A stretch of DNA of 64,000 bases from Methanoculleus caldifontis (GCF_032842345.1 NZ_WBKO01000002.1:144208-208207); one strand, 5' to 3'. Counted from the first letter of the stretch, positions 497 through 12,450 are shown. Notes: generated by a model from the letters alone, not told the origin. A program made the numbers and translations.

Positions 497-507
497 AATT
501 ATATACC
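497..507 (+). promoter_or_regulatory. TATA-like box in front of the mini-CRISPR
   Basis: AATTATATACC stands in an AT-rich patch. About 25 nt downstream, the usual archaeal TATA-to-start distance, lies the first degenerate repeat (from 527). The mini-array can therefore be an independent transcription unit whose RNA would begin at or just before repeat 1. Confidence 0.5.
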
Positions 508-526
508 CGGACGATGAATATTAGCA

Positions 527-610
527 ATGTTCCCCATCATATGGGGATAAACCGATATCATACAACAAAGTCGTCTTCGATCTTTCAAGTTCCCCATCAT
601 GTGGGGATGA
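527..610 (+). CRISPR. Degenerate two-repeat mini-array: candidate crRNA-resembling regulatory RNA
   Basis: Two repeat-like units, 527-554 and 587-610, lie 60 nt apart and flank exactly 32 nt (555-586), the spacer length of the main array. Repeat 1 keeps GTTCCCCAT and GGGGATAAACCG but has a 3-nt CAT hairpin loop instead of four bases. Repeat 2 keeps the hairpin but has lost the terminal AACCG. Cas6e-type cleavage would give an RNA from 547 (handle ATAAACCG) to about 606, close to a canonical I-E crRNA. The spacer partly matches the casA promoter beside an AAG PAM (3571-3605). Structure and match are seen; a regulatory role like the CreR or CreA class of crRNA-like RNAs is inferred. Confidence 0.75.
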
Positions 611-724
611 TCTGCGCTGGCAGGGGAGATTCATCCTCCTCCTGACCGGTACAATCCGGGTATCCCTTCCAGGTCGGCTTCTATGGGTGAAAAGGGGCTC
701 TGCGGACGTTTCTTCAAACCGGCA

Positions 725-732
725 GATTTATC
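725..732 (+). promoter_or_regulatory. cas3: Probable cas3 TATA-like box
   Basis: GATTTATC lies about 35 nt before the cas3 ATG, which would give a short 5' UTR. It is the only AT-rich element between the mini-array and cas3, suggesting that cas3 is transcribed separately from the Cascade operon. Confidence 0.35.
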
Positions 733-763
733 CTCGCCGGCCCTGACTTGAAAACTTATTGCT

Positions 764-3475
764 ATGGCTTCTTCCAGAACCGAAGATATCCACCGCTACT
801 GGGGCAAGTATGCCACAAACGATGGCCTTGTATGGCACCTGCTCCCCTATCACTGCCTGGATGTCGCAGCGGTCGGTAATGAACTGCTCAGGAGAGATGA
901 CCAGGTATTCCAGAAGACCGTCGGGGCGGTTCCTCTCCGTGATGAGTATGTCTGTTCGCTCATTCTATTCTTCCTTGCCGTTCACGACGTCGGGAAATTC
1001 TCCGAACGGTTCCAGGGCCTCAACACTGCACTCCAGTCCGGTCTTCAGGGTAGCGCCTGTCATATGCCATACAGTCATCACCATAGCACGATGGGCATGC
1101 TCGTCTTCATGCGGGAGATCTGGCCACAGATGCTGGATGAACATCGGCTTAGGGCAGATCGCGATGAGGATCCATTCGATCTGGAGGATCTCTTCCTTCC
1201 CTGGATACGGGCGGTGACTGGGCATCACGGGAAGCCCGTCACTGACAGCGGCACACTCTCTGACCTCTTCAGCCCGGCAGACCGGGAGGCAGCATGCGGG
1301 TTCGCACGGGCCTGCTCCGATCTGTTTCTTTCAGAGACTCCAGAAGAGCCGATCCGGTATTCAACCGAGTTGCACGAGGCTTTCACCCGAATATCCTGGC
1401 TGATCGCCGGGTTGGCTGTTTTAAGCGACTGGATAGGATCGGACTCCAATATATTCGAGTATCGCCGGGATCCGATGCCTCTTGACGAGTACTGGCAGCA
1501 CTATGCCGTACCACGGGCGAAAGAGGCGGTTGCCAGGGCGGGCGTCCTGCCATCCCTCGTGGCTCCCTTTCTGGGGATAGCATCTTTCCTTCCGGAAGGT
1601 GCAGTTCCTACACCTCTGCAGGAAGCCGCCGCGGACTGTGAACTGGCAGAGGGGCCCTGCCTCTTTATCATTGAGGATGTCACCGGGAGCGGAAAGACCG
1701 AGGCCGCACTTGCACTGACACATCGCCTCATGGAGCGCGGATCTGCCGAAGGCGTCTTCATGGCGTTGCCGACGATGGCTACCGCGAATGGCATGTACAG
1801 GCGATTCACGGAGAAGTACCGGCAATTTTTCGTTGATGGGGAACATCCCTCGCTACTCCTCTCCCACAGTGCAAGGAACCTCTCCAACCTCTGGCGCCAG
1901 TCTATCGGCCCGCAAACCGACAAGGTTGCCTCCCCTCCCGGGGAAGAAGCGGGATCGGTCGAATGTGCTGCCTGGCTTTCAGACAACCGCAAGAAATCTC
2001 TCCTCGCTGATATCGGCGTCGGCACTATAGATCAGGCACTCATGGCCGTGATGCCGCTCCACCACCAGTCGCTCCGCCTGCTCGGTCTCGCCCGGCATGT
2101 ACTGGTTGTGGATGAGGTGCATGCCTACGACGAGTATATGAACACCCTCCTTGAACGGCTATTGCAGTTCCACGCCGCTTTTGGCGGCAGTGCTATCCTG
2201 CTCTCGGCGACGCTTCCGATCAGACTCCGGGAGCGATTCGTCGCCGCTTACCGCTCAGGTCTTCAGATGCCGGCAACGCCGACACAGGAGGCCGCCTTTC
2301 CCCTGATGACAATGACATCCTCACAGGGCGTAGACGAAAGACAGGTACAGGCGAATACTCTTTCCCAGAAGACCGTTGTGGTTGAACTCACCGATAGTGA
2401 GACTGATGTAGAGGCCTATCTTGAGCGTGCTCTTCGGGATGGGCATTGCGCCTGCTGGATACGGAATACCGTTATCGATGCGGTCGAGACGTACGAGCGC
2501 CTCGCCGCACGCTGGGGAGACGAGCACGTCAAGCTCTTTCATGCCCGATTCACTACTGGCGATCGCCAGAGGATTGAGGATGATGTGCTGGCATGGTTCG
2601 GGAAGCAGAGCACAGATGCCAGCCGCAGAGGGAAGATTCTGGTAGCAACACAGGTCGTTGAACAGTCGCTGGATATTGACTTCGATGCGATGGCTACGGA
2701 TCTTGCGCCCATCGACCTGATCATCCAGCGGGCCGGGAGACTCCACCGGCACAGGGAGAGGAGAAGCGGAACTCCTGAAACGCCCGCCCTGCTCGTCCTC
2801 TCTCCCCCTCCAGTTGAGAATCCGGAAAGAGACTGGTTTACGAGCGTGTTCCCCCGAGCAGGGAGGGTATACGAGAAACACGGGCAACTCTGGCTCACCG
2901 CCCGTCTGCTTGCCGCCCGGAAACTGATTGTGATGCCTGATGACGCCCGGTCGCTGATCGAAGGTGTCTTTGGAGACGCGGTGCAGGCATCCGTTCCTGA
3001 AGCCCTCAAAGTCTGGGAGGTACAGGCAGATGGAAAAGACCGGGGACATGCGGCGCTGGCACAGATCAACGCACTGCGGCCACAGACAGGGTATGCGGAC
3101 CTGCACGGCCAGTGGGAGGATGACAGCCGGACGCCTACCCGACTTGGGGAGGCGAGTGTCACCGTCGTGCTGGCCTGTGGCGACCGGGCCGGACTTCGGC
3201 CGTGGAATGGTGCAGAGGGAGCCACCTGGGAAGGGAGTCTGGTCTCGGTGAGGGAGTCTCTGATAGCAGGCCCCATCCACTATTCGGTGGATGAAGAGCG
3301 TGAGATCGCGCGTGTAAAGCCGCTCCTGCCCGGCAGGGGGGAGGGAAGCATCCTCATTCCCCTGACCCATGTTGCAGGCGGGACATGGGAGGGGCGCGCA
3401 CGGAATCGGAAGGACAAAGAGGTGATCGTCACCTACGATTCAAAGATCGGCCTGCAAATTCGGGATGGGCGATGA
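764..3475 (+). CDS. cas3: CRISPR-associated helicase-nuclease Cas3 (type I-E)
   Basis: The 903-residue product has the full Cas3 order. The N-terminal HD nuclease shows H30, H74-D75 (AVHDVGK), a histidine cluster at 105-107 and H154-H155. The SF2 helicase follows, with Walker A VTGSGKT (306-312), DEVH box (450-453), SAT motif (481-483) and a QRAGRLHRH motif VI near 655. Cas3 is recruited by target-bound Cascade and unwinds and degrades the non-target strand. Length and motifs are intact, so the nuclease should be active. It is separated from casA by 213 nt containing the Cascade promoter, so the two units can be regulated independently. Confidence 0.97.
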   Translation: MASSRTEDIHRYWGKYATNDGLVWHLLPYHCLDVAAVGNELLRRDDQVFQKTVGAVPLRDEYVCSLILFFLAVHDVGKFSERFQGLNTALQSGLQGSACHMPYSHHHSTMGMLVFMREIWPQMLDEHRLRADRDEDPFDLEDLFLPWIRAVTGHHGKPVTDSGTLSDLFSPADREAACGFARACSDLFLSETPEEPIRYSTELHEAFTRISWLIAGLAVLSDWIGSDSNIFEYRRDPMPLDEYWQHYAVPRAKEAVARAGVLPSLVAPFLGIASFLPEGAVPTPLQEAAADCELAEGPCLFIIEDVTGSGKTEAALALTHRLMERGSAEGVFMALPTMATANGMYRRFTEKYRQFFVDGEHPSLLLSHSARNLSNLWRQSIGPQTDKVASPPGEEAGSVECAAWLSDNRKKSLLADIGVGTIDQALMAVMPLHHQSLRLLGLARHVLVVDEVHAYDEYMNTLLERLLQFHAAFGGSAILLSATLPIRLRERFVAAYRSGLQMPATPTQEAAFPLMTMTSSQGVDERQVQANTLSQKTVVVELTDSETDVEAYLERALRDGHCACWIRNTVIDAVETYERLAARWGDEHVKLFHARFTTGDRQRIEDDVLAWFGKQSTDASRRGKILVATQVVEQSLDIDFDAMATDLAPIDLIIQRAGRLHRHRERRSGTPETPALLVLSPPPVENPERDWFTSVFPRAGRVYEKHGQLWLTARLLAARKLIVMPDDARSLIEGVFGDAVQASVPEALKVWEVQADGKDRGHAALAQINALRPQTGYADLHGQWEDDSRTPTRLGEASVTVVLACGDRAGLRPWNGAEGATWEGSLVSVRESLIAGPIHYSVDEEREIARVKPLLPGRGEGSILIPLTHVAGGTWEGRARNRKDKEVIVTYDSKIGLQIRDGR

Positions 3476-3570
3476 TAATAACCCCTCAGATATCTCTTAT
3501 TTTTGATTTAGCCCCCATATCCTTCCAGAGAGCCTTAAGGGCCTTTCAGAGCGACCCGATCGGAAGGTAT

Positions 3571-3605
3571 AAGATATCTTATAATAAGTATTCCCGTGAG
3601 CGTTG
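3571..3605 (+). promoter_or_regulatory. casA: casA core promoter carrying a PAM-flanked match to the mini-array spacer
   Basis: AAG (3571-3573) is followed by a sequence matching the mini-array spacer at positions 1-5, 7-8, 10-11 and 13-14. Mismatches are at 6, 9 and 12, and the match ends at 14. AAG is the consensus PAM of type I-E, and positions 6 and 12 are among the flipped-out bases of Cascade-bound crRNA. The match sits in a perfect 16-bp palindrome (3568-3583) and on the only TATA-like sequence (TTATAATAAG, 3579-3588) before casA. Cascade bound here would cover the TATA box and the likely start near 3607. Partial pairing of this kind should allow binding without cleavage; that is inference. 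Confidence 0.7.
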
Positions 3606-3688
3606 TCGTACCGTTCCAATCCTGTCATACGTGAGAGTACCTCCCGGTTGATTGGTGCAGAGTGGTCAGGCAATGCAGGTGAACAGAC

Positions 3689-5323
3689 ATGGTCAATCTC
3701 ATCGATGATCCATGGATACCCGTCGTGCGAAGGGACGGTACACGGGAGAGGGTCGCCCCCTGGGAGATTACCGGAGGGACCGAGCCCGTGATCCGGCTGG
3801 ATGCGCCCCGGCCGGACTTCAACGGGGCGCTTATCCAGCTCCTTATCGGCCTTACGCAGATGGCAATTCCCCCTGGTGACAACCGGGACTGGAGACGGCG
3901 GTTCAAGACGCCGCCACCTCCGGGTGAGTTAAAAGAAGCGTTTACGCCGTACTCCCACGCTTTCAATTTTGACGGTGATGGCCCGCGGTTTATGCAGGAC
4001 TATGATCTCAACGAGGGTGTAGAGAGCTCCATAGACCGACTGTTGATGGAGATGCCCGGAGAGCAGACGCTGAAGTTGAATACCGATCATTTCCTGAAGC
4101 GCGGGACAGTCAACCGGATCTGCCGGGACTGCTGTGCAATGGCTCTCTTTACGCTCCAGACAAATGCTCCGTCCGGCGGCCGGGGGCACCGAACATCGCT
4201 CCGGGGCGGAGGGCCGCTGACCACGCTGGTCACAGGCACAACCCTGTGGGAGACCGTCTGGCTGAATGTTCTTTCCCGGGATCAGTTCGAGATTCTCGGT
4301 AATGTCGCCAGAACTGCCGACCCCGACCGGTTCCCCTGGATGGGGCCGACCCGCACCAGCTCCCGGAACGAGACAACATCTCCGATCGATGTGCATCCGG
4401 CGCAGGTCTTCTTCTCCATGCCCCGCAGAATCCGGATCGACTTTGATCGTCCGGAGTCAGGGAACTGCGATATCTGCGGTTGCGGATCGGACCACCTTGT
4501 CTCACAATACTCCACAAAGGATAGCGGAGTGAACTACAAGGGGGGCTGGAAACACCCGCTTACGCCGTATTACCAGCCAAAGAACGCCGAAGAACCTCTA
4601 CCGAAGCATGGGCAGGCAGACGGAATATCGTACAGAAACTGGCTCGGGCTTGTGCAGAATGATCCTGAGAGCCGTACGCAGCCTGCGCTGGGGGTCCAGG
4701 TCTTCCGGAACGAAAGGCAACGCTTTCTGACCGATCATCTGGGCGGCTCGGCGCCGCTCTGGGCGTTTGGGTTCAAGACGGACAACATGAAGGTGGTCTG
4801 CTGGAACGAGAGCACGATGCCGCTGATCCATGTCGACGAGGCGGTCCGTGAACGATACGAAAGTGTTGTGACGGCCCTGATCAAGACTGCTGATCTCGTC
4901 GCTGGCAGCACCCGCAGTTGTATCCGGAAAGCACTCTTTGGAGACCGCAAAGATGCGGGCGGGAACATCCCCGAGGTCGATTCCCGGTTCTGGCAGGAGA
5001 CGGAGAGCGAGTTTTACGCCGTGCTGGAGGCATTACGGGAGGCAATGGAGAGAGGTGAGGATACAACCTCCCTGAAACTACAGTGGCTTTCGAGCCTCTC
5101 TCGTGAGGCCGAGGCACTCTTCGATGTCTACTCGCAGGCCGACCTTATCGGTGTCGCGAATCCGCGAAGGATTGCCCTGTCCCGGCGCATGCTCAGGAAC
5201 TACACCTCGCAGAGGAACAAGAAGATCCGTGATGCGCTCGATCTCCCCAAAGACCCTGAAGACGGCGATGCAAAGCCCGGGAGAACCCGAAAGCGCTCCG
5301 TAAGTCAAGGTGAACACCCATGA
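3689..5323 (+). CDS. casA: Cascade large subunit Cse1/CasA (Cas8e)
   Basis: This 544-residue protein begins with the Cse1 motif NLIDDPWIPV and has the family's usual length. It recognises the PAM and recruits Cas3. Two cysteine pairs, C145/C148 and C260/C263, correspond in position to the zinc site of the E. coli protein. The start has a GGTG ribosome-binding element 10 nt upstream. It heads an operon in which most genes overlap or nearly touch (casB overlaps by ATGA). The promoter upstream carries the mini-array target. Confidence 0.96.
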   Translation: MVNLIDDPWIPVVRRDGTRERVAPWEITGGTEPVIRLDAPRPDFNGALIQLLIGLTQMAIPPGDNRDWRRRFKTPPPPGELKEAFTPYSHAFNFDGDGPRFMQDYDLNEGVESSIDRLLMEMPGEQTLKLNTDHFLKRGTVNRICRDCCAMALFTLQTNAPSGGRGHRTSLRGGGPLTTLVTGTTLWETVWLNVLSRDQFEILGNVARTADPDRFPWMGPTRTSSRNETTSPIDVHPAQVFFSMPRRIRIDFDRPESGNCDICGCGSDHLVSQYSTKDSGVNYKGGWKHPLTPYYQPKNAEEPLPKHGQADGISYRNWLGLVQNDPESRTQPALGVQVFRNERQRFLTDHLGGSAPLWAFGFKTDNMKVVCWNESTMPLIHVDEAVRERYESVVTALIKTADLVAGSTRSCIRKALFGDRKDAGGNIPEVDSRFWQETESEFYAVLEALREAMERGEDTTSLKLQWLSSLSREAEALFDVYSQADLIGVANPRRIALSRRMLRNYTSQRNKKIRDALDLPKDPEDGDAKPGRTRKRSVSQGEHP

Positions 5324-5826
5324 AACAGACGCAATATATCTCGTTTATGAACAACCCGGACGCCAGGTCGGTTCTGATCGAATGGTGGGCGAGTCTGGAT
5401 CACGCCCGTGGGGATCGGGCGGCGCTCAGGCGTTGCAGGAGCAGCCAGGAGGTGGCATTTGTCCCGGCGTTCCACCGGTTGCGCCGGAATCTCTCTGCGA
5501 TTGCCCCCGTAGATGCTGAAAAACTTGCAGTGGTGGCCGGGATCCTTTCGCATGTGAAGGAGAACGACTACGCGCTCCGGTTCGCCCAGCAGATGGCGAC
5601 ATCGAAGAACGGCAGTGACCGTGCCCGGGTGAGCGGGCTGCGCTTCAGGCGGCTGCTCAAGATCGAAGACCACGACGACCTGTATGGTGCGGTAGTCCGG
5701 ACCATCCGGCTTCTCGATGGCTCGCTGAACATTGCGAGCCTCGCGGATGGGATCTACTGGTGGAATGAGAGGACGAAGAACAACTGGGCGTTTGACTACT
5801 ATGACAAAGCCCCGAATGAAGCCTAA
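5320..5826 (+). CDS. casB: Cascade small subunit Cse2/CasB (Cas11e)
   Basis: The 168-residue, basic, mainly helical protein starts in an ATGA overlap with casA and occupies the conserved second position. Cse2 forms the belly dimer of Cascade and stabilises the R-loop. Motifs such as FVPAFHRLRRNL and SGLRFRRLLK near its C-terminal half agree with the family. Sequence similarity in this family is low, so position and length contribute to the call. Confidence 0.93.
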   Translation: MKQTQYISFMNNPDARSVLIEWWASLDHARGDRAALRRCRSSQEVAFVPAFHRLRRNLSAIAPVDAEKLAVVAGILSHVKENDYALRFAQQMATSKNGSDRARVSGLRFRRLLKIEDHDDLYGAVVRTIRLLDGSLNIASLADGIYWWNERTKNNWAFDYYDKAPNEA

Positions 5827-5847
5827 CTATCGATTGGAGGAGTTAAC

Positions 5848-6951
5848 ATGAGCGAATTTGTTCAATTACACGTGCTTGTATCGTACCCGCCGTCAAACCT
5901 GAACCGTGACGATCTCGGCAGGCCAAAGACTGCCGTCATGGGCGGCGCCCAGCGCCTGCGAGTCTCATCGCAGAGCCTGAAGCGGGCCTGGAGGACGTCG
6001 GATATCTTTGCCAGTACGCTTGCAGGGCACCTCGGCGTCAGGACAAAGGAGATGGGGACACTGGTTTATCGGTCCCTGACATCGGGCGTCAGCCTTGCAG
6101 AGATCCTCCGGGGGGCGAACGATGCACCTGCAACATTCCAGCCTGTCACCGAGGAGAAGGGCCGGAAGTGGGCATCCGAGATCGCCGGTATATTTGGAAA
6201 GCTGAAATCGGGCGAGAATGCCCTTGAGATCGAACAGCTTGCTCATTTCAGTCCCGAGGAGATCGCCGCTATTGACGCGCTGATCTTAAAACTGGCAGCC
6301 AGCGGAAAGGATCCTGACGAAGACGACAGAAAACTTCTAATGAAGCGGCACACCGCGGCAGATATCGCCATGTTTGGCCGGATGCTGGCGGCATCCCCGA
6401 TCTACAACACGGAGGCAGCGGTGCAGGTCTCTCATGCGGTCACCGTACACCCGGTCGCAGTCGAGGATGACTACTTCACGGCGGTCGATGATCTCAACCG
6501 GGGCGATGAGGGTATGGGCGCCGGGCACCTCGGTGAGACGGAGTTCGCATCCGGACTCTTTTACCTCTACGTCTGTGTCAACCGCGATCTGCTGCGTGAG
6601 AACCTGGGTGGCGACGAAGCCCTTACGGGAGCTGCTCTCCGTGCCCTCGTCGAAGCGGCGGCAAAGGTTGCACCGACCGGCAAACAGAACAGTTTTGCAT
6701 CCCGGGCGTATGCATCGTACCTGCTTGCGGAGAAGGGATGCCAGCAGCCCCGCTCGCTCTCGGTTGCATACTTAAAGCCGTTGCAGGACGCTGACCTGCT
6801 TGGCAGTGCAATCAACGCGTTGAAGGACACCCGGAACAAGATGGATGCGGTGTACGGGAACTGCAGCGACAGCTGGTGCGATATGAACGCGCATGCCGGA
6901 GAAGGGGCGCTGCAAGAGGTCCTGGATTTTGTGGCTGGTCACCATGCCTGA
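5848..6951 (+). CDS. casC: Cascade backbone subunit Cas7e (Cse4/CasC)
   Basis: The 367-residue protein has the diagnostic N-terminus (VQLHVLVSYPPSNLNRDD) followed by RLRVSSQSLKRAWR. Six copies form the crRNA-binding backbone of Cascade and produce the periodic flipped-out bases that matter for judging the mini-array target. A strong GGAGG element precedes ATG 5848. The last 8 nt overlap casD. Confidence 0.96.
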   Translation: MSEFVQLHVLVSYPPSNLNRDDLGRPKTAVMGGAQRLRVSSQSLKRAWRTSDIFASTLAGHLGVRTKEMGTLVYRSLTSGVSLAEILRGANDAPATFQPVTEEKGRKWASEIAGIFGKLKSGENALEIEQLAHFSPEEIAAIDALILKLAASGKDPDEDDRKLLMKRHTAADIAMFGRMLAASPIYNTEAAVQVSHAVTVHPVAVEDDYFTAVDDLNRGDEGMGAGHLGETEFASGLFYLYVCVNRDLLRENLGGDEALTGAALRALVEAAAKVAPTGKQNSFASRAYASYLLAEKGCQQPRSLSVAYLKPLQDADLLGSAINALKDTRNKMDAVYGNCSDSWCDMNAHAGEGALQEVLDFVAGHHA

Positions 6952-7690
6952 GTTCCTCGTCTTTCGCCTGTATGGCATGATGGCATCGTGGGGAGATATC
7001 GCGTTCGGGGAGTTCCGTCCGACCGCGGACCACCCATCCCGGTCCGCAGTCCTCGGGCTGCTTGCCGCGGCGCTCGGGATACGCCGTGACGAGGAGGAGC
7101 GGCTTTCCGCGCTCTCGAACGCTTACCGGATAGCGATCCGGGTGGATGCACCCGGAGTGCTGTTGCGGGACTATCATACGTCTCAGGTTCCTCCTGCAGG
7201 GAGAGGGCGAAAGAAGCACTCGTTTGCCACCCGGAGAGAGGAACTGGCGATGCCCCGCGAGGAGCTCTCGACAGTGCTTTCCACCCGTGATTATCAGTGT
7301 GATGCCGTATCGACGGTCTGTATCTGGCAGGGGTCCGATTCGGCCCCGTACTCGTTGAAGGATCTGGCGGCAGCCCTGAATAGTCCCGTGTTTGTCCTGT
7401 ATCTCGGCAGGAAGTCCTGCCCGCCTGCTCTCCCGGTACATGCACAGGTCGCTGCCGGCGAGAACCTTGCGGCCGTGCTCTCGTCGGTGCGGTTCCCCGA
7501 CAGCGATCTGCTCCGGGGTCTGCTTTGCGACGGGGATCTGCGGGTCTTCTGGGAAGGGGATCAGGATGTCGGTATCCCGGCGATCCACACGACCCTGCGG
7601 TACGACAATCCGTTGAGCCGGAAACGGTGGCAGTTCGGGAGCAGGGCCGAGCATTATGGTGTTTTACGGAGCAGGTCGCCATGTTCCTGA
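6944..7690 (+). CDS. casD: Cascade subunit Cas5e (CasD)
   Basis: The start at 6944 gives MPEFLVFRLYGMMASWGDIAFGE, the typical Cas5e opening, followed by HPSRSAVLGLLAAALGI; upstream in-frame codons lie inside casC and lack these features. The product is 248 residues. Cas5e caps the crRNA 5' handle in Cascade and contacts Cse1. It overlaps casC by 8 nt and casE by 10 nt, indicating translational coupling. Confidence 0.95.
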   Translation: MPEFLVFRLYGMMASWGDIAFGEFRPTADHPSRSAVLGLLAAALGIRRDEEERLSALSNAYRIAIRVDAPGVLLRDYHTSQVPPAGRGRKKHSFATRREELAMPREELSTVLSTRDYQCDAVSTVCIWQGSDSAPYSLKDLAAALNSPVFVLYLGRKSCPPALPVHAQVAAGENLAAVLSSVRFPDSDLLRGLLCDGDLRVFWEGDQDVGIPAIHTTLRYDNPLSRKRWQFGSRAEHYGVLRSRSPCS

Positions 7691-8367
7691 GCAGGATGCG
7701 GCTCCGGCCGGGTGCAGCCGGGAACCGTGAGTTCTGGCAGATGGTGGGAAGTGAGTACCAGGCGCATCATATGGTCTGGGACCTCTTCACCGACGGCCCC
7801 GACCGGGAGCGGGACTTTCTCTACCGGGTTGAGGAGAACGAAGGGATGCCCACGATCTACTCCGTCTGCGAGCGTGAACCGGTGAACCGGGGCGGAATGT
7901 GGACGATCGAGACGAAACTCTACGATCCGGCCCTTCGGACAGGGCAGCAGCTTGCGTTCGTACTCCGTGCGAATCCTGTCCGGACGAAGTGCGACGAGAA
8001 GGGGAAGCACCACCGCCACGATGTGGTGATGGAGGCGAAGACCCGGTTGAAGCAGCAGGGCAGGCCTCGCGAGGAGTGGCCGCCGGAGCCGGAGATTGTC
8101 CAGCAGGCAGGGTTTGCGTGGCTTGCGATGAAGGGCGAGGCGAACGGCTTTTCGGTAGCGGAAGGAGATGTCCGTGCGGACGGCTATATCCAGCGGCGGT
8201 TCCGGAAGCGCAAGGGACGCCACGAGATCAGCATCAGCACACTCGATTATACGGGCATCCTCACGGTTGCCGACCCGGAGAGGTTCAAGGCAGCCCTGTA
8301 CAACGGGATAGGGCCTGCGAAAGGGTTTGGCTGCGGGATGATGATGGTGCGGCCGGCAGTGCGGTAG
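7681..8367 (+). CDS. casE: crRNA-processing endoribonuclease Cas6e (CasE)
   Basis: Starting at ATG 7681, the 228-residue protein opens MFLSRMRLRPG and has YQAHHMVWDLF, where H29 aligns with the catalytic histidine of Cas6e. The C-terminus has the glycine-rich loop GIGPAKGFGCG typical of repeat-associated mysterious proteins. It cuts repeat RNA at the 3' base of the hairpin and stays bound to it. It should also recognise the mini-array hairpins, which keep the CCCCAU stem. Confidence 0.95.
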   Translation: MFLSRMRLRPGAAGNREFWQMVGSEYQAHHMVWDLFTDGPDRERDFLYRVEENEGMPTIYSVCEREPVNRGGMWTIETKLYDPALRTGQQLAFVLRANPVRTKCDEKGKHHRHDVVMEAKTRLKQQGRPREEWPPEPEIVQQAGFAWLAMKGEANGFSVAEGDVRADGYIQRRFRKRKGRHEISISTLDYTGILTVADPERFKAALYNGIGPAKGFGCGMMMVRPAVR

Positions 8368-8377
8368 GGGAGGAGAT

Positions 8378-9629
<1,252 letters not shown>

Positions 9630-9737
9630 GGCAGATGATGGTTATAGGCGGTTCCCTGATCCCTCACGGCGCTCTTTGTATCCTGTGCCCGGTTAGGTGG
9701 AAGTAACCTTCCACTGTTCTGGAATAAAAAGGGATGA
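9630..9737 (+). promoter_or_regulatory. CRISPR leader
   Basis: The 108 nt between cas2 and the first repeat is taken as the leader because the opposite end of the array has the decayed terminal repeat and the repeat is in the E. coli orientation. It contains a 7-bp inverted repeat, GTGGAAG-TAAC-CTTCCAC (9697-9714), and an AT-rich GGAATAAAAAGGG just before repeat 1. The inverted repeat could be a docking site for an integration host factor substitute or part of the promoter; that is inference. Confidence 0.7.
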
Positions 9738-12450
9738 GCGTTCCCCATGTACGTGGGGATGAACCGCAACAGGAAGGGGAGACTGCCAAGGGTACTAAGC
9801 GTTCCCCATGTACGTGGGGATGAACCGGTGAACGTGACCGCTGGCTCGCTGGTCTCGTAGCGTTCCCCATGTACGTGGGGATGAACCGCGCGCCAACGCC
9901 TTCGCGAGCCTCGCGCCCCTGCGTTCCCCATGTACGTGGGGATGAACCGGGGTGGATCGAGCGCAACGCCGCGACGCTGGAGCGTTCCCCATGTACGTGG
10001 GGATGAACCGAGCGTATCCTCGCCCGGACCCCGGTCGGTAACGCGTTCCCCATGTACGTGGGGATGAACCGATCATCGACGCCGGGTGGGGCTCGGCGGG
10101 ATAGCGTTCCCCATGTACGTGGGGATGAACCGGTCATCATCGTGTTCGGGTCGGTGCGTCCGTCGCGTTCCCCATGTACGTGGGGATGAACCGTTCCCTG
10201 CCCCGGTGCCGAGGTTCGTGACCCGGCGTTCCCCATGTACGTGGGGATGAACCGTTGGCCTCACTCACGGAGGGTATGGAGGAGAAGCGTTCCCCATGTA
10301 CGTGGGGATGAACCGCAGGCGTCGACGCGCCCGACCTCATCGAGCATGCGTTCCCCATGTACGTGGGGATGAACCGGGTTAAAATGCCATGTGTGGCATG
10401 TGTGGTATGCGTTCCCCATGTACGTGGGGATGAACCGACATCGCAGTCGGTCCACCCGATGGGAAATCCGCGTTCCCCATGTACGTGGGGATGAACCGGC
10501 AAACGGCTGCTCCCGGGAACAGGTCATAGAGCGTTCCCCATGTACGTGGGGATGAACCGATCGTCGCCCGCGTCAACGGGGCGAACCAGGGGCGTTCCCC
10601 ATGTACGTGGGGATGAACCGCCAGTCGTAGGCCCCGCCGGTGACGGGAGAGAGCGTTCCCCATGTACGTGGGGATGAACCGAGTGTCGACGCGCTACTTC
10701 AGCGGATGTTGCGGCGTTCCCCATGTACGTGGGGATGAACCGATTGACGGGCGGAGGGGATACTGATGGTGCTCGCGTTCCCCATGTACGTGGGGATGAA
10801 CCGAGGGAGTCCAAACAATTCCCGCCTCCGGAGATGCGTTCCCCATGTACGTGGGGATGAACCGAGGAGAGCCAGCGGCATGTGAGGGTGCAGCACGCGT
10901 TCCCCATGTACGTGGGGATGAACCGGTGTTAATGATGGGTTGCACGACAATTACCAGGCGTTCCCCATGTACGTGGGGATGAACCGGCCCCGACGGCGTT
11001 CCACCGGCTCGCCTCATCGCGTTCCCCATGTACGTGGGGATGAACCGAGAGTATCGACTGGACCGGCAAGCGGCTTGTCGCGTTCCCCATGTACGTGGGG
11101 ATGAACCGGACGGCGCTGCGTGAATATACTTGCAGGTAATGCGTTCCCCATGTACGTGGGGATGAACCGTCTTGAGGGTCATCGCCGCCCCTCCCGGATC
11201 CGCGTTCCCCATGTACGTGGGGATGAACCGGATCTTCTGGCTCACGCGATCCTGCAGAGATAGCGTTCCCCATGTACGTGGGGATGAACCGCGCGAGGCT
11301 TTACGGGGAGAAAATCATTTTTCGCGTTCCCCATGTACGTGGGGATGAACCGCGATGACGAGTTTTTCGTCCTCTGCGAGAATCGCGTTCCCCATGTACG
11401 TGGGGATGAACCGGGACCGGTGACGAGGAGCGGGCAGGAGACCGTGCGTTCCCCATGTACGTGGGGATGAACCGACGATGAAATAGCCAATCGCCGCAAT
11501 AGTGACGCGTTCCCCATGTACGTGGGGATGAACCGGGCGCTATCGGGCTCGGCTCCCACCTCGTCATGCGTTCCCCATGTACGTGGGGATGAACCGGAGC
11601 ATACGGGCGGCTGGGGCGGCAAGCCGCCGCGTTCCCCATGTACGTGGGGATGAACCGGCGCTTATTCGTCCGCTATCGCGTTTTTGAATGCGTTCCCCAT
11701 GTACGTGGGGATGAACCGGCGGCAGCAAAAATCAACGGCATGTGGCGCGTGCGTTCCCCATGTACGTGGGGATGAACCGTATCGCAGGCTCGCCGAGGAC
11801 CGCGCGGAAGTGCGTTCCCCATGTACGTGGGGATGAACCGGACACGGACATCGCCAACCCGGAGGGCTACGGGCGTTCCCCATGTACGTGGGGATGAACC
11901 GGACACGGACATCGCCAACCCGGAGGGCTACGGGCGTTCCCCATGTACGTGGGGATGAACCGGCTTTGATCTCCGCCGTCATCGAGGCGTCGGCGTGTTC
12001 CCCATGTACGTGGGGATGAACCGTACGGCCGGTGTGGCGCGGTTGGTTCGTGGCTGCGTTCCCCATGTACGTGGGGATGAACCGCACTCGTCTGAATTCC
12101 TCGGCACGACCGGCACGCGTTCCCCATGTACGTGGGGATGAACCGTCTCCGCTCTCCTGTAGCCGAGCACGATACCGGCGTTCCCCATGTACGTGGGGAT
12201 GAACCGATAGAGACCCTTGGTGTCGCCGGTATTGCCGGGCGTTCCCCATGTACGTGGGGATGAACCGGTGTAAACAATGGCAGCAGCAAAAATCAACGGG
12301 CGTTCCCCATGTACGTGGGGATGAACCGAACCCGGAGTTCAGGGCGCTTGTAGACCAGATGCGTTCCCCATGTACGTGGGGATGAACCGAACGAGTTCGC
12401 AACAGAGCTCACCAAGCGGCTGCGTTCCCCATGCACATGGGGACAAACCG
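9738..12450 (+). CRISPR. Type I-E CRISPR array, 45 repeats and 44 spacers
   Basis: Repeats of 29 nt begin GCGTTCCCC and end GGGGATGAACCG; CCCCAT and GTGGGG form the hairpin with loop GTAC. The period is exactly 61 nt throughout, giving 32-nt spacers. Repeat 38 (11995) has C2 changed to T, and the last repeat (12422-12450) has four substitutions, marking the trailer end. Spacers 35 and 36 (11841-11872 and 11902-11933) are identical. Spacers 33 (11719-11750) and 42 (12268-12299) share about 20 nt with one mismatch. The reverse strand gives spurious ORFs rich in VHPHVHGER and SSPRTWGT, which are translated repeats. Confidence 0.99.

Follow-up and report, generated by a model that had tools for sequence, protein, structure and literature searches.

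A degenerate mini-CRISPR upstream of cas3 in Methanoculleus caldifontis as a probable CreR-type autorepressor of Cascade

The type I-E locus and its mini-array

The window, i.e., the whole 64,000-nt stretch of Methanoculleus caldifontis DNA analysed here (NZ_WBKO01000002.1:144208-208207), carries a complete type I-E CRISPR-Cas locus, the features of which are collected in Table 1. All of its cas genes are open, and casA-E, cas1e and cas2e, the gene for Cas6e included, score above the cut-off of the subtype I-E NCBIfam models. Directly 5′ of cas3 is a BRE/TATA-like element (AAACCGGCAGATTTATCC, ~716-733) that is conserved in relatives, which suggests that cas3 has a promoter of its own, outside the regulatory loop proposed below. 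Further upstream, beside a partial gene for a phosphate or sulfate permease, is the mini-array with which this report is concerned.

Table 1. Features of the M. caldifontis locus (window positions) and mini-arrays of further loci (positions relative to casA)
Feature	Position	Strand	Remarks
Putative TATA box of the creR-like gene (TTATATAC)	499-506	+	From sequence; predicted start near 525-530, at the first repeat
Mini-array, two degenerate repeats and one spacer	527-614	+	Upstream of cas3 in a complete type I-E locus
Degenerate repeat R1 (ATGTTCCCCATCATATGGGGATAAACCG)	527-554	+	28 nt; hairpin of 7 bp, like that of the main-array repeat
Predicted crRNA 5′ handle, final 8 nt of R1 (ATAAACCG)	547-554	+	
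Predicted mature crRNA-like RNA (handle, spacer, 3′ hairpin)	547-606	+	60 nt; 5′ handle AUAAACCG
Spacer (guide)	555-586	+	32 nt; seed pairs with the casA promoter
Degenerate repeat R2	587-614	+	Hairpin retained
Decayed 8 nt 3′ of the predicted Cas6e cut in R2 (ATGATCTG)	607-614	+	Likewise decayed in three relatives
cas3 (HD nuclease-helicase), intact	764-3475	+	NCBIfam Cas3 models (core and HD domains)
Putative casA promoter core	3561-3575	+	BRE-like CGGAAGG 3561-3567; TATA box TATAAGAT 3568-3575
Candidate PAM (AAG), within the TATA box	3571-3573	+	At the target in 4 of 4 genomes
Protospacer-like target of the mini-array spacer	3574-3605	+	From the end of the TATA box; extends beyond the predicted start site of casA
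casA/cas8e, first gene of the Cascade operon	3689-5323	+	TIGR02547; starts 115 bp after the target start
casB (cse2), casC (cas7e), casD (cas5e), casE (cas6e)	5320-8367	+	NCBIfam matches above cut-off
cas1e, cas2e	8378-9629	+	NCBIfam matches above cut-off
Main CRISPR array (GCGTTCCCCATGTACGTGGGGATGAACCG)	9738-12450	+	~45 repeats of 29 nt; 61-nt period; last repeat variant
L121 (bacterium nzgw234) mini-array and target	-252/-171	-	Seed 10/10, AAG
L128 (Ectothiorhodospira mobilis) mini-array and target	-180/-107	-	Seed 9/10, AAG
L136 (Ectothiorhodospira mobilis) mini-array and target	-179/-108	-	Seed 10/10, AAG
L127 mini-array and target	-223/-149	-	Seed 9/10, ATG
G214 (Methanospirillum MAG; L069, = L119) mini-array	-3062 to -3150	-	Upstream of cas3

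The hairpins of both mini-array repeats have the same 7 bp as the main-array repeat, with a loop one base shorter, and the handle in R1 is intact (its main-array counterpart is ATGAACCG). In one of the relatives considered below (G021), a stem pair of R1 has changed on both sides, from C-G to T-A, and this compensation argues that the hairpin is kept as an RNA structure. An A/T-rich, TATA-like block stands about 25 bp 5′ of R1, at the same distance in all four genomes that carry the element. Since this is the normal archaeal spacing from TATA box to start site, a creR-like transcript is expected to begin near R1. Cas6e in type I-E systems cleaves at the base of the hairpin, and on this basis the 60-nt RNA of Table 1 is predicted. 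Judged from the pattern of decay, degeneration of the repeats has spared the promoter and the parts needed for processing (the 5′ handle and the Cas6e hairpin), and it is the dispensable 8 nt that have decayed.

The mini-array differs from an ordinary immune CRISPR array in that its repeats are degenerate and its spacer seed has been kept against the cell's own promoter. In IMG/VR, the first 21 nt of the spacer had no exact match, although this is a weak test, and the region matched no Rfam family apart from a chance match to mir-484.

Some features of the main array may be recorded here. Two neighboring spacers (11841-11872 and 11902-11933) are identical, the repeat-spacer unit having been duplicated. 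The spacers near 11719 and 12268 overlap in a common stretch, GCAGCAAAAATCAACGG, and therefore probably stem from one source region. Across the array, the minus strand has long open frames (9341-12402; repeating HPHVHGER and SSPRTWGT peptides), which were discarded as spurious translations of the CRISPR repeats.

Pairing of the guide with the casA promoter

The initial annotation had proposed that the mini-array spacer matches the casA promoter behind a PAM, and the match is as it described. The spacer (ATATCATACAACAAAGTCG... against AAG-ATATCTTATAATAAGTATT... in the promoter) is identical to its target at positions 1-5, 7-8, 10-11, and 13-14 and is mismatched at 6, 9, and 12; the pairing ends after position 14, similarity beyond it being at chance level. 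AAG lies directly before the target (3571-3573) and is a candidate for the PAM of M. caldifontis Cascade, this role being carried over from other I-E systems. The target also covers the likely TATA box of casA, as had been claimed: in all four genomes, AAG is part of an invariant TATAAG, and the purine-rich BRE is retained as well. Because AAG sits inside the TATA box, its conservation by itself does not prove its use as a PAM.

The match was scored over positions 1-5 and 7-11 (ten in all) at sites next to AAG, on both strands of the 213-bp gap between cas3 and casA. When the spacer was dinucleotide-shuffled, 9 of the 20,000 trials reached a seed score of 9/10. The 44 canonical array spacers of the window all stayed below it, the best of them scoring 8. 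Among 1,327 canonical-repeat-preceded spacers from 40 loci, just one scored above 8/10 against the region upstream of its own casA, and that one was the mini-array spacer of a relative (G026) itself. The motif AAG-ATATC-N-TA-N-AA-N-AA occurs without mismatch once in the 2.6-Mb genome, at the casA promoter, and in each of the four genomes the respective target is unique. The cas3 promoter and the mini-array's own promoter were considered as second targets and rejected, with best seed scores of only 4-6/10.

Two observations on neighboring sequences may be added. The sole other near-match in the genome, AAGATATCTTATAAGAG (G000:C3:151362-151378; L107), has one mismatch and is unlikely to matter, since it falls within a reading frame of the opposite strand. 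In the leader 5′ of casA, CAATGCAGGTGAA (3668-3680) is invariant in the four genomes although the surrounding leader is not; it is partly a Shine-Dalgarno-like AGGTGA, and its CAATGC part is without explanation.

How the pairing has fared in evolution can be read from a small set of genomes. A CasA relative is present in 6 of 35 genomes of the genus. Four belong to the present CasA lineage, i.e., M. caldifontis, G026 (88%), G029 (87%), and G021 (82%), and the other two are distant (44%). The comparative evidence thus comes from these four genomes alone, and at least two are MAGs. In all four, the mini-array is found at the same place, at -3134 to -3188 from casA, with the target at -114 to -116 and AAG before it. 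BLAST with the mini-array DNA clearly found the copy in G026 alone; those in G029 and G021 were missed and were recovered by positional and pattern searches. We also ran an unbiased scan over 40 Methanomicrobiales I-E loci, in which each site following a hairpin and a handle-like 8-mer was compared with all PAM-preceded sites within 420 bp of casA. Of the hits, only those in the four orthologous Methanoculleus loci combined AAG with a repeat-like hairpin at a common position. A search of 232 genomes of the order for the mini-array pattern returned 4, exactly those with this CasA lineage; the absence elsewhere holds only as far as the pattern does, since it was written from these four.

The guide and target sequences (lower case for mismatches) are ATATCaTAcAAcAA / ATATCtTAtAAtAA in M. 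caldifontis, GTATCgTACAAtGAA / GTATCcTACAAaGAA in G026, GTATCgTACAATGA / GTATCaTACAATGA in G029, and ACATTgTACaAaGAATGgTTC / ACATTtTACcAtGAATGaTTC in G021. The seed score is 10/10 in G026 and G029 and 9/10 in the other two. Guide and target have been substituted together at positions 1 (A/G), 2 (T/C), 5 (C/T), and 13 (A/G). Uncompensated changes are absent from positions 1-5, 7-8, 11, 13, and 14; there is one on the target side at position 9 (M. caldifontis) and one at position 10 (G021). Across the four genomes, 38 of 40 seed cells are paired, as against 1 of 8 at the flipped-out positions 6 and 12 (Fisher 3.7e-6). Pairing reaches positions 13-14 in every genome and extends further in G021; over positions 18-32, 20 of 60 cells are matched. 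The flanking noncoding DNA is 55-71% identical among the four.

Compensating changes in relatives had been named in advance as the decisive observation, and they are present. Nor has any of the four carriers, among the 232 genomes, kept the mini-array and lost the seed match. Comparison of these sequences thus indicates that the pairing of guide and promoter is maintained by selection. The Cascade pairing register becomes readable from evolution, since guide and promoter change together only where Cascade reads the bases.

Known systems and rival readings

Elements of this kind have already been published. CreR are cas-regulating RNAs made from mini-CRISPRs and partly complementary to cas promoters, reported for types I-B, I-E, and V-A (PMC13131331, PMC12737573); their source is Liu et al. 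(2023, Cell Host Microbe 31:1481), as cited in PMC12948488 and PMC12737573. The Methanoculleus case is a well-supported further instance. It shares with CreR a two-repeat mini-CRISPR beside the cas genes, a limited, PAM-adjacent complementarity to a cas promoter with pairing under selection, an intact effector and Cas6, and autorepression by the effector complex as the proposed outcome. A full-text search, beyond the reach of which the primary CreR paper lay, returned no paper on Methanoculleus together with type I-E CRISPR.

CreA, the guide of the CreTA modules of haloarchaeal type I-B systems, likewise has two degenerate repeats, and its spacer pairs with a promoter through bases 1-5 and 7-11 (PMC8501985, PMC9458426). 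Experimental mapping has shown that these positions suffice to repress, that 6 and 12 are free, and that each of the ten seed bases is required in type I-B (PMC8501985). The register is the same here, with positions 6 and 12 free, and the PAM again falls within a core promoter element (the BRE for CreA, the TATA box here). The differences are that the target here is the cas operon and not a toxin, that the system is type I-E, and that pairing extends to positions 13-14. In Haloarcula (type I-B), spacers of 30 bp or less lost interference, and those of 21-24 bp still repressed (PMC10989794). The anti-CRISPR RNAs known as Racr are also ectopic repeat-like elements that engage Cas proteins (PMC10651486), but they are virus-encoded solitary repeats that mimic array repeats, whereas the present element is chromosomal and has two repeats and a conserved target. 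Its orthologous chromosomal place by cas3 in four genomes argues against a viral or mobile origin of the Racr type.

Several other histories could leave a spacer that matches a cas promoter. The spacer might have been acquired from the promoter, the array then decaying to escape autoimmunity and now being without function, as the degenerate repeats and the confinement of the match to the first 14 positions would allow. However, the handle, the hairpin, and the promoter were spared from decay, and the seed match is actively kept: in simulations of independent drift from a matched ancestor, at least 38 matches with at least three variable seed positions arose with p ~0.001 or less at every rate tried. 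We consider such a remnant very unlikely. We think it just as unlikely that the common motif (RYATYNTAYAANRA-like) is the operator of some protein repressor that binds in both places. Two similar sites changing together would be expected in that case too, the co-variation following the protein. But the copy in the mini-array directly follows an intact crRNA handle, with no base in between; it has no AAG and is set between two Cas6e-type hairpins, and its free positions 6 and 12 are those of Cascade R-loops.

The identical pairing register of CreA guides also raises the question of an addiction module of the CreTA kind, in which the interval between target and casA would encode a small toxin, RNA or peptide, silenced by the guide. 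The leader does carry an 11-codon reading frame that overlaps the casA start, but this frame lacks a separate start signal, and conservation of its sequence goes no further than casA requires. The target promoter leads straight into casA with the Shine-Dalgarno-like AGGTGA, and neither a toxin gene nor an Rfam RNA is found in 3476-3688, which makes a silenced toxin most improbable. Finally, that a decayed CRISPR remnant resembles an A/T-rich promoter by accident has a negligible chance of being right: although A/T-rich spacers match such promoters more easily and one genome taken alone offers only 11 matched bases, accident is contradicted by the shuffles, by the 1,326 other array spacers, none of which exceeds 8/10, and by the recurrence of the match, with co-substitutions, at the same position in four genomes.

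The proposed loop and further candidates

CRISPR effectors can attack their own host, so how cells cap the level of the effector is a practical question. We prefer the view that the mini-array encodes a CreR, a crRNA-like RNA through which the Cascade operon is autorepressed, and put its probability at a little under nine in ten. The initial annotation had read the element as a CreR/CreA-type autoregulator, and the four-genome co-variation at positions 1, 2, 5, and 13 supports this; a thermostat of self-restraint is very probable because relatives keep the match through paired mutations.

The loop would operate as follows. The mini-array would be transcribed from its own promoter directly upstream of R1, and Cas6e would cut both hairpins to yield a guide of ~60 nt whose 5′ handle is intact. 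Once loaded with it, Cascade would recognize AAG in the casA TATA box and form a short R-loop, held together by pairing at spacer positions 1-5, 7-8, 10-11, and 13-14. With ~11-13 paired bases, far below the need for cleavage, the R-loop would be too short for cutting by Cas3. The R-loop would reach from the TATA box beyond the expected start site, so that the bound Cascade could block both TBP/TFB access and initiation. Cascade would thereby repress its own operon (casA-E and probably cas1-2), the upstream cas3 not being targeted. Expression would rise whenever Cascade left the promoter, be it drawn away by additional ordinary crRNA or lost to anti-CRISPR proteins.

Since the promoters of cas3 and the mini-array have no comparable target, the action of the loop should be confined to the Cascade operon. 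The mini-array should itself escape targeting, since CCG and not AAG stands before the copy in the spacer. Repression in M. caldifontis could be weak, because position 9 is mismatched and the type I-B CreA needed all ten seed bases (PMC8501985). The exact 14-base circuit is now defined for testing, and the findings suggest RNA-guided self-control of CRISPR in methanogens of the Methanoculleus group.

Further CreR candidates come from a simple scan for a handle, hairpin, seed, and PAM near casA. When it was extended to named GTDB I-E loci, four bacterial loci emerged (L121, L128, L136, and L127; Table 1) in which a mini-array in the cas3-casA gap faces a PAM-flanked site about 75 nt away, with position 6 mismatched as in Methanoculleus. 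The target there may double as the promoter region of the mini-array itself. A fifth candidate, in a Methanospirillum MAG (G214), has a spacer that matches its casA promoter at 14 of the 15 read positions (1-5, 7-11, and 13-17) next to ATG. No other copy was found in that genus; in a relative (G212), the contig breaks before the place. The bacterial loci and the Methanospirillum MAG are likely independent I-E examples. Together the five support the CreR kind, and their arrangement varies.

The bacterial elements lie on the opposite strand close to their target, whereas the Methanoculleus mini-array shares the strand of its target, from which it is separated by 3 kb, and is located upstream of cas3 behind a putative promoter of its own. 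It is possible, and we suggest it only tentatively, that the archaeal I-E CreR is wired differently from the bacterial cases found here: with its own promoter 3 kb from the target, it would repress neither itself nor cas3 and so provide a constant input, the level of Cascade alone following the balance of crRNA and free Cascade. On the same tentative reading, such elements would have arisen independently in bacteria and in archaea, in the latter once in Methanoculleus and once, on the opposite strand, in Methanospirillum. The mini-array of the Methanospirillum MAG adjoins a gene for a DEDDh-type exonuclease, and its orientation is opposite to that in Methanoculleus.
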